Source: Acidobacteriaceae bacterium (lineage in GTDB: Bacteria; Acidobacteriota; Terriglobia; Terriglobales; Acidobacteriaceae). From it: DNA of 64,000 bases. This document shows positions 59,046-59,366 of this stretch, piece by piece. Positions within the stretch are counted from its first letter, which is position 1. Each line of letters starts with the position of its first letter. The DNA is taken from assembly GCA_030041515.1 (NCBI GenBank), contig JASHNS010000034.1:1-64000 (forward strand). The letters run 5' to 3'. The position numbers and the translations under genes are program-made. The notes under the pieces are model-generated. The model was given only the letters and a program-made list of their open reading frames with translations. It was not told where the DNA came from and did not search any database.

Positions 59046-59158
59046 GAATACAGGGTACTGCGGCGGAGCACTTGGCAACCTGAACTGAAAGTGTGCACAG
59101 GATGCGGCGTGGAACACGAATTGCGGGAACCCGCATGAATAATGGCTACAAAAGCATC

Positions 59159-59183
59159 GGGGGGATGCTCATCGCATCCCCCC
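59159..59183 (-). terminator. Intrinsic terminator of the lysine-rich peptide gene
   Basis: GGGGGGATGC (59159-59168) and GCATCCCCCC (59174-59183) form a perfect 10-bp stem with loop TCATC. On the minus strand it starts 21 nt after the peptide stop codon and is followed by GATGCTTTTG, containing a short T run. This is the best terminator-like structure in the window. Confidence 0.65.
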
Positions 59184-59203
59184 GAGGTGTTGCCGTGGAT
59201 GGC

Positions 59204-59272
59204 TTACTTTTTCTTCCCGGCCTTCTTCGCTGCCTTCTTCGCCGGTTTCTTTGCTGCCTTCTTCGTTGCCAT
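59204..59272 (-). CDS. 22-residue lysine/alanine-rich peptide, histone-tail-like
   Basis: A very small gene, below normal gene-finding limits. After Met-Ala-Thr the peptide alternates Lys pairs with short Ala, Pro or Gly spacers and ends with three Lys; 11 of 22 residues are Lys. This is the KKAAKKPAKK pattern of histone H1 tails and bacterial H1-like proteins such as Hc1 and AlgP, so it may bind DNA or RNA. Support for real expression is strong: a near-consensus promoter (59338-59366), two leader hairpins, GGGAG about 10 nt before ATG 59272, and a 10-bp terminator hairpin downstream. It may also be a degraded relic of a longer protein or a dual-function RNA. Confidence 0.7.
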   Translation of the reverse strand: MATKKAAKKPAKKAAKKAGKKK

Positions 59273-59299
59273 AGTTTCTATTCTCCCTTTTCGATGCGA

Positions 59300-59329
59300 A
59301 CATCGATGTCTGCAACATAAATGTTGCAG
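59300..59329. promoter_or_regulatory. Adjacent palindromes in the leader of the lysine-rich peptide gene
   Basis: CTGCAACAT (59310-59318) and ATGTTGCAG (59321-59329) are perfect 9-bp arms around AA; directly beside them is the 10-bp palindrome ACATCGATGT (59300-59309). They lie right after the inferred transcription start (about 59331), so they could be an operator. In RNA the first forms a 5' hairpin of at least 8 bp, and the second joins TCGATG-TTCG-CATCGA, a 6-bp stem with a UUCG loop, just ahead of the ribosome binding site. Confidence 0.6.
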
Positions 59330-59337
59330 TTAACGAA

Positions 59338-59366
59338 TGTATAGAGTTCCGCACCTGCAGTGTCAA
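59338..59366 (-). promoter_or_regulatory. Strong sigma70-type promoter of the lysine-rich peptide gene
   Basis: On the minus strand TTGACA (59366-59361) matches the -35 consensus exactly, followed after exactly 17 nt by TATACA (59343-59338), which matches the -10 at four of six positions including TATA. Transcription would start about 59331. This is the best -35/-10 pair I see in the window. Confidence 0.65.

Follow-up and report, generated by a model that had tools for sequence, protein, structure and literature searches.

Dual-function RNAs and small basic proteins

In SgrST, a dual-function small RNA, the base-pairing part is conserved and the ORF is found in only a subset of species (PMC8672173), while the small ORF of VcdRP encodes 29 amino acids (PMC8672173). 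The Acidobacteriaceae locus described here resembles SgrS/SgrT and VcdRP in layout: each is a short RNA gene that stands alone, with a promoter and terminator to itself, and combines a small ORF with a conserved RNA segment distinct from it. SgrST is also the closest precedent for its evolutionary pattern, in which the ORF occurs in a subset of lineages and the RNA is conserved. In contrast to both systems, to which it has no sequence relation, the locus encodes a Lys/Ala polycation of variable length and is near-universal in its family. Literature searches of open-licence papers returned no description of such a unit.

The peptide has precedents of another kind. Hc2 of Chlamydia is a histone H1-like bacterial protein (PMC2848022), and KPAA-repeat peptides bind DNA in vitro (PMC9239181). 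The resemblance to H1-like proteins (AlgP/PhaF tails, Hc2) lies in low-complexity Lys/Ala(/Pro) repeats whose number sets the length; the peptides described here, in contrast, have 12 to 37 residues, no folded domain and no arginine, and are specified by their own small RNA. Curated H1-like models did not match the 22-aa peptide of the window, and the best that a 76-aa relative achieved was E 0.9 against hist_H1_lk_Burk, far below the cut-off. The ribosomal proteins eL41 and bTHX are likewise very short, very basic, single-copy and probably highly expressed, but they contain arginine and have a fixed sequence, whereas the unit's peptides vary in length and lack arginine.

Organization of the unit

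The window, a 64,000-nucleotide stretch of an Acidobacteriaceae contig, contains the unit between rsmE on one side and genes for a CPBP protease and a thiolase on the other. An earlier note had described it as a complete miniature transcription unit, with promoter, leader with two hairpins, GGGAG, lysine-rich ORF and terminator, and every one of these elements is present (Table 1). The leader spans about 59 nt. As in stand-alone dual-function small RNAs, the unit has a promoter and a terminator of its own, and the gene order around it varies. The 180-nt RNA folds at −60 kcal/mol compared with −42 for shuffled sequences (z = −4.65; 0 of 200 shuffles as good), a low energy largely owed to the terminator, whose stem is conserved across units as GGGGGAYGC..GCRTCCCCC.

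Table 1. Elements of the transcription unit in the window
Feature	Coordinates	Strand	Remarks
Entire unit	59157–59366	−	promoter, two hairpins, GGGAG, 22-codon ORF with 11 Lys, terminator; read directly
−35 box TTGACA	59361–59366	−	part of CTTGAC, invariant in alignment A2
−10 box TATACA	59338–59343	−	17-nt spacer to −35; followed by conserved TTCGTTA
Hairpin 1, core CTGCAACAT-TTA-TGTTGCAG	59310–59329	−	covarying stem; at or ≤2 nt from the inferred RNA 5' end
Hairpin 2	59291–59306	−	immediately 5' of the ribosome-binding block; some lineages lack it
GGGAG	59283–59287	−	read directly
AAGGGAGAATAG block	59278–59289	−	Shine-Dalgarno and further conserved bases; also retained in ORF-less units
ORF MATKKAAKKPAKKAAKKAGKKK	59204–59272	−	22 aa, 11 Lys, stop TAA
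GGCAACAC motif	59187–59194	−	before the terminator; the window's own copy is CGGCAACAC
Intrinsic terminator, 10-bp core GGGGGGATGC/GCATCCCCCC	59157–59185	−	12 bp as folded, then T-run

Searches with Rfam 15 returned no match to the unit in this region of the window even at E 1, and none at the gathering level for eight related loci. The sole gathering-level Rfam match in the window is 6S RNA (RF00013; 32551–32741, plus strand, 59.5 bits).

Conservation at the RNA level is most evident in the leader. In hairpin 1, 97% of alignment cells are paired and two-sided changes occur at 4 of the 7 pairs, giving a covariation score of 0.250, compared with 0.145 for shuffled alignments (reached in 0 of 500) and at most 0.058 for slid ones. 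Hairpin 2 is absent from L008, L049, L050, L052 and L079. The AAGGGAGAATAG block is longer than a Shine-Dalgarno sequence requires. Downstream of the ORF, 100 of 155 distinct 3'UTRs (stop codon to terminator) contain AGGCAA, compared with about 2.3 in mononucleotide shuffles, an excess that relatedness among the sequences inflates. The shorter GGCAA is absent from 42 of 148 distinct ORF-bearing 3'UTRs (about a quarter), for example those of several 13–20 aa forms, and because of these the role of the RNA may be confined to part of the family.

Distribution

The unit is present in all 12 genomes of the window's genus. A strict pattern, GGGAGAAT followed by codons for MxxKKAAKK, was found in 94 of 300 genomes of the family, and no genome matched its reversed control; carriers of the pattern include Edaphobacter lichenicola, E. 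modestus, Granulicella rosea and Terracidiphilus MAGs. This pattern proved too narrow as a measure of spread, and a covariance model, R1, built from 60 sequences and reaching from the −35 box to codon 9, was used instead. R1 matched 54 of 58 sampled genera, almost all of the genomes being negative by the strict pattern, and 138 of 150 genomes of the order, usually with one copy per genome (129 of 136 in Acidobacteriaceae, the window's family, and 9 of 14 in a second family). Diverged units escape the model: in G222 and G262, which gave no R1 hit or lay outside its sample, a unit upstream of rsmE was seen by eye. A chance ORF is ruled out by this spread, and on the same distribution we regard the unit as a single-copy part of the Acidobacteriaceae core genome. 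An apparent second copy in one genome (G065, contig C75, L032) is probably binning contamination, because its rsmE is nearly identical to that beside L157, from another MAG outside the genus.

The peptide is under selection

The 163 units with an ORF encode 95 distinct peptides of 12 to 37 aa, such as MPAKKKAKKKKK, MATKKKAKKKKKH and the window's own. Together they contain 1008 lysines and not a single Arg, Asp, Glu or Asn. Lysine accounts for 50% of residues and alanine for 31%, followed by Thr, Pro, Ser, Val and a few His and Gly; the set was gathered with a Lys-rich filter, which helps explain the share of lysine but not the absence of arginine. The lysine codons comprise 767 AAG and 241 AAA and never AAY, the third positions of alanine codons take all four bases, and no change in length disturbs the ATG, frame or stop. 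The earlier note had called for a comparison of synonymous and non-synonymous change, and this favors a coding ORF: within the genus, pS is 0.365 and pN 0.068 (pN/pS 0.19), with 4, 2 and 11 of 21 columns variable at codon positions 1, 2 and 3, respectively. The all-lysine, arginine-free composition and the pN/pS ratio indicate that the ORF is under protein-level selection. Arginine-free polycations in a GC-rich genome suggest that lysine itself is being selected.

The second codon is GCA in 147 of 148 units, giving ATGGCAAC, although only 33 of 339 alanine codons in the window's genes are GCA; the cause of this bias may lie in translation or in an RNA motif. Many of the shortest peptides, from several genera (L203–L210, L053–L059, L254–L257), end in a single C-terminal histidine (KKKKKH). 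The 22-aa peptide matched no Pfam or NCBIfam model. That the window's ORF is a remnant of a longer H1-like gene is ruled out, the whole genus keeping the 22-aa ORF with its own terminator.

Loss of the reading frame with retention of the RNA

In genera g32, g64 and g44 of the family, and in two genomes of genus g34, the lysine ORF is missing, while the promoter, GGGAG block and terminator are retained. The earlier note had proposed that disappearance of the ORF in close relatives, with the rest of the unit conserved, would point to an RNA rather than a peptide; close relatives keep the ORF, and it is in these other genomes that the predicted pattern appears. In g64, the best-sampled of the ORF-less lineages (10 distinct sequences), the segment between GGGAG and terminator that replaces the ORF has a mean identity of 92% with 81% invariant columns, compared with 31% identity in upstream DNA, 41% in the spacer to rsmE and 64% in the first 100 nt of rsmE itself. 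It carries 1-nt indels, no reading frame, and in 10 of 11 rows no ATG. These values rule out the g64 units as relics. Because the segment replacing the ORF is the most conserved part of the locus, the comparison indicates that the RNA is selected without the peptide, and it probably also has a function of its own.

Every ORF-less unit (n = 26) contains one to four copies of GGCAA, and in most g32 sequences a small hairpin presents GGCAAAG as part of its loop (GCGGTGGCAAAGGCCGC and variants); an ATG lies upstream in some and not in others. In three ORF-less g32 RNAs (L263, L270, L271) a UUCUC-type stretch, seen by eye, could pair with the GAGAG/GAGAA of the GGGAG block and hide it. On the rsmE tree, g32 and g64 form one clade (98) that adjoins the ORF-bearing L012 and L065, with g44 placed separately; from this position the loss of the ORF is judged to be derived. 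The 3'UTRs of L012 and L065, with the ORF present, already hold two GGCAA copies each, and the motif must therefore predate the loss. What appears new in this locus is that a lysine ORF was lost at least twice, on the best rsmE tree, with promoter, GGGAG block and terminator kept; the strongly supported branches alone would still allow a single loss. The g34 cases, which lie outside the tree for want of an rsmE beside them, sit in a genus that mostly keeps the ORF and thus suggest that the losses were probably three or more. A pattern search of the ORF-less genomes for a relocated peptide gene, requiring two KK pairs and so liable to pass over divergent forms, found no short peptide of the MATKKAAKK type; most hits were unrelated short ORFs or longer proteins that carry DUF6496 or another domain.

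Interpretation of the unit

We consider it probable, from comparison of sequences, that the unit is a stand-alone, single-copy gene of the Acidobacteriaceae core genome for a dual-function small RNA in the style of SgrST, encoding a polycationic peptide. The near-consensus promoter, the covarying 5' hairpin, the fixed AAGGGAGAATAG block and the strong terminator together form one short unit, whose RNA would be abundant given the strength of the promoter and a 5' hairpin serving as stabilizer. The peptide would be a disordered polycation whose charge lets it act on ribosomes, nucleic acid or some other polyanion, for instance polyphosphate. Contact with a target RNA or protein would be made through the single-stranded GGCAA motifs in the stretch from GGGAG to the terminator. 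Of the two roles suggested in the earlier note, nucleic-acid coating and an RNA-level signal, the comparison supports selection at both the peptide and the RNA level; coating itself is suggested by composition and by the KPAA-repeat peptides (PMC9239181).

A plain small mRNA would make only an H1-like polycationic microprotein, with the 5' hairpin and terminator stabilizing the message and the ORF-less forms left as relics or later repurposed. The strong protein-level selection on the ORF fits such an mRNA, as do the longer Lys/Ala-rich proteins that other families of the class encode with an identical GGGAGAAT start and the Lys-rich micro-ORFs elsewhere in the phylum (L358–L361), but a relic would not remain as conserved as the g64 segment is between its diverged flanks, and the GGCAA motif is older than the loss of the ORF. 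We therefore judge this explanation unlikely. The opposite extreme, a purely noncoding RNA in which the lysine codons are a purine-rich stretch (an AAR repeat that binds a chaperone, for instance) and the peptide a by-product, draws on the resemblance of AAR codons to A-R-N repeats and on the strong preference for GCA, which hints at constraint on the RNA. It is hardly tenable given lysine codons that vary between AAA and AAG without ever becoming AAY, alanine third positions that accept all four bases, and an ATG, frame and stop that survive every length change.

The position of the unit invites a further explanation, a cis-acting leader that attenuates the downstream 16S rRNA methyltransferase gene rsmE, with or without a lysine leader peptide. 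Among 189 units, 104 are followed by rsmE on the same strand, those of the window, g32, g64 and g44 included, but 72 lack rsmE over at least 1.2 kb and 5 are convergent with it, on the opposite strand (8 units are cut off). In many of the units without rsmE downstream, the thiolase on the other side is the retained neighbor. Neither the single minimum-energy fold of the window RNA nor its centroid fold shows an antiterminator, and ORF-less units without rsmE exist in g34. As a general role, attenuation of rsmE is thus mostly rejected, with a regulated gene downstream in only 104 units, and we regard it as very improbable. In g32, g64 and g44, rsmE follows each of the ORF-less RNAs, which may on account of this position have a cis role on the gene; it is missing only beside the two g34 cases.

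Returning to the dual-function RNA, we lean, with less assurance, towards a fuller account: an undescribed core RNA of the Acidobacteriaceae would combine a GGCAA-bearing regulator with arginine-free Lys/Ala peptides as short as 12 aa, the peptide having been shed several times and the RNA held under stronger constraint than neighboring genes, and a Lys/Ala microprotein spread across the phylum may be the ancestor of the peptide half. An unannotated unit that almost all sampled genomes of a dominant soil-bacterial family carry, and that no Rfam, Pfam or NCBIfam model matches, is a candidate basic regulator or nucleic-acid-packaging factor. Its natural variants, with peptides of 12 to 37 aa and lineages that have the RNA only, separate RNA from peptide and so make the evolution and division of labor of dual-function RNAs directly testable. 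The absence of arginine beside 1008 lysines raises the question of why lysine in particular is needed.

Longer relatives and the wider phylum

Proteins with DUF6496 (PF20106) in the same bacteria share a MATKKAAKK-type N-terminus with the short peptides, and some (L072, L086, L132) a GGGAGAAT-type start as well. They differ in having other promoters and a conserved C-terminal domain (E 5e-20) that is missing from the short peptides; a search of the 22-aa peptide for this domain did not find it. DUF6496-like proteins of 79–131 aa with a MATKKA.KK tail at their start were seen at L072, L086, L132, L340, L341, L344, L345, L348, L350 and L352, with the profile confirming DUF6496 in L132 only; these proteins may be sources of the short peptide or may derive from it.

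Other families of the class encode Lys/Ala proteins of 23–114 aa with GGGAGAATC starts. Low sequence complexity leaves their homology to the short peptides, like that of the phylum's micro-ORFs, uncertain. A phylum-wide lysine microprotein may exist; matches to R1 at the level of the phylum are weak, and several fall on other Lys-rich micro-ORFs. Such micro-ORFs, of 14, 27 and about 40 aa, were observed in other classes or families (L361, L358, L359, L360), and that of L361 encodes the 14-aa MATKKKAAKKKKKC and has its own terminator.
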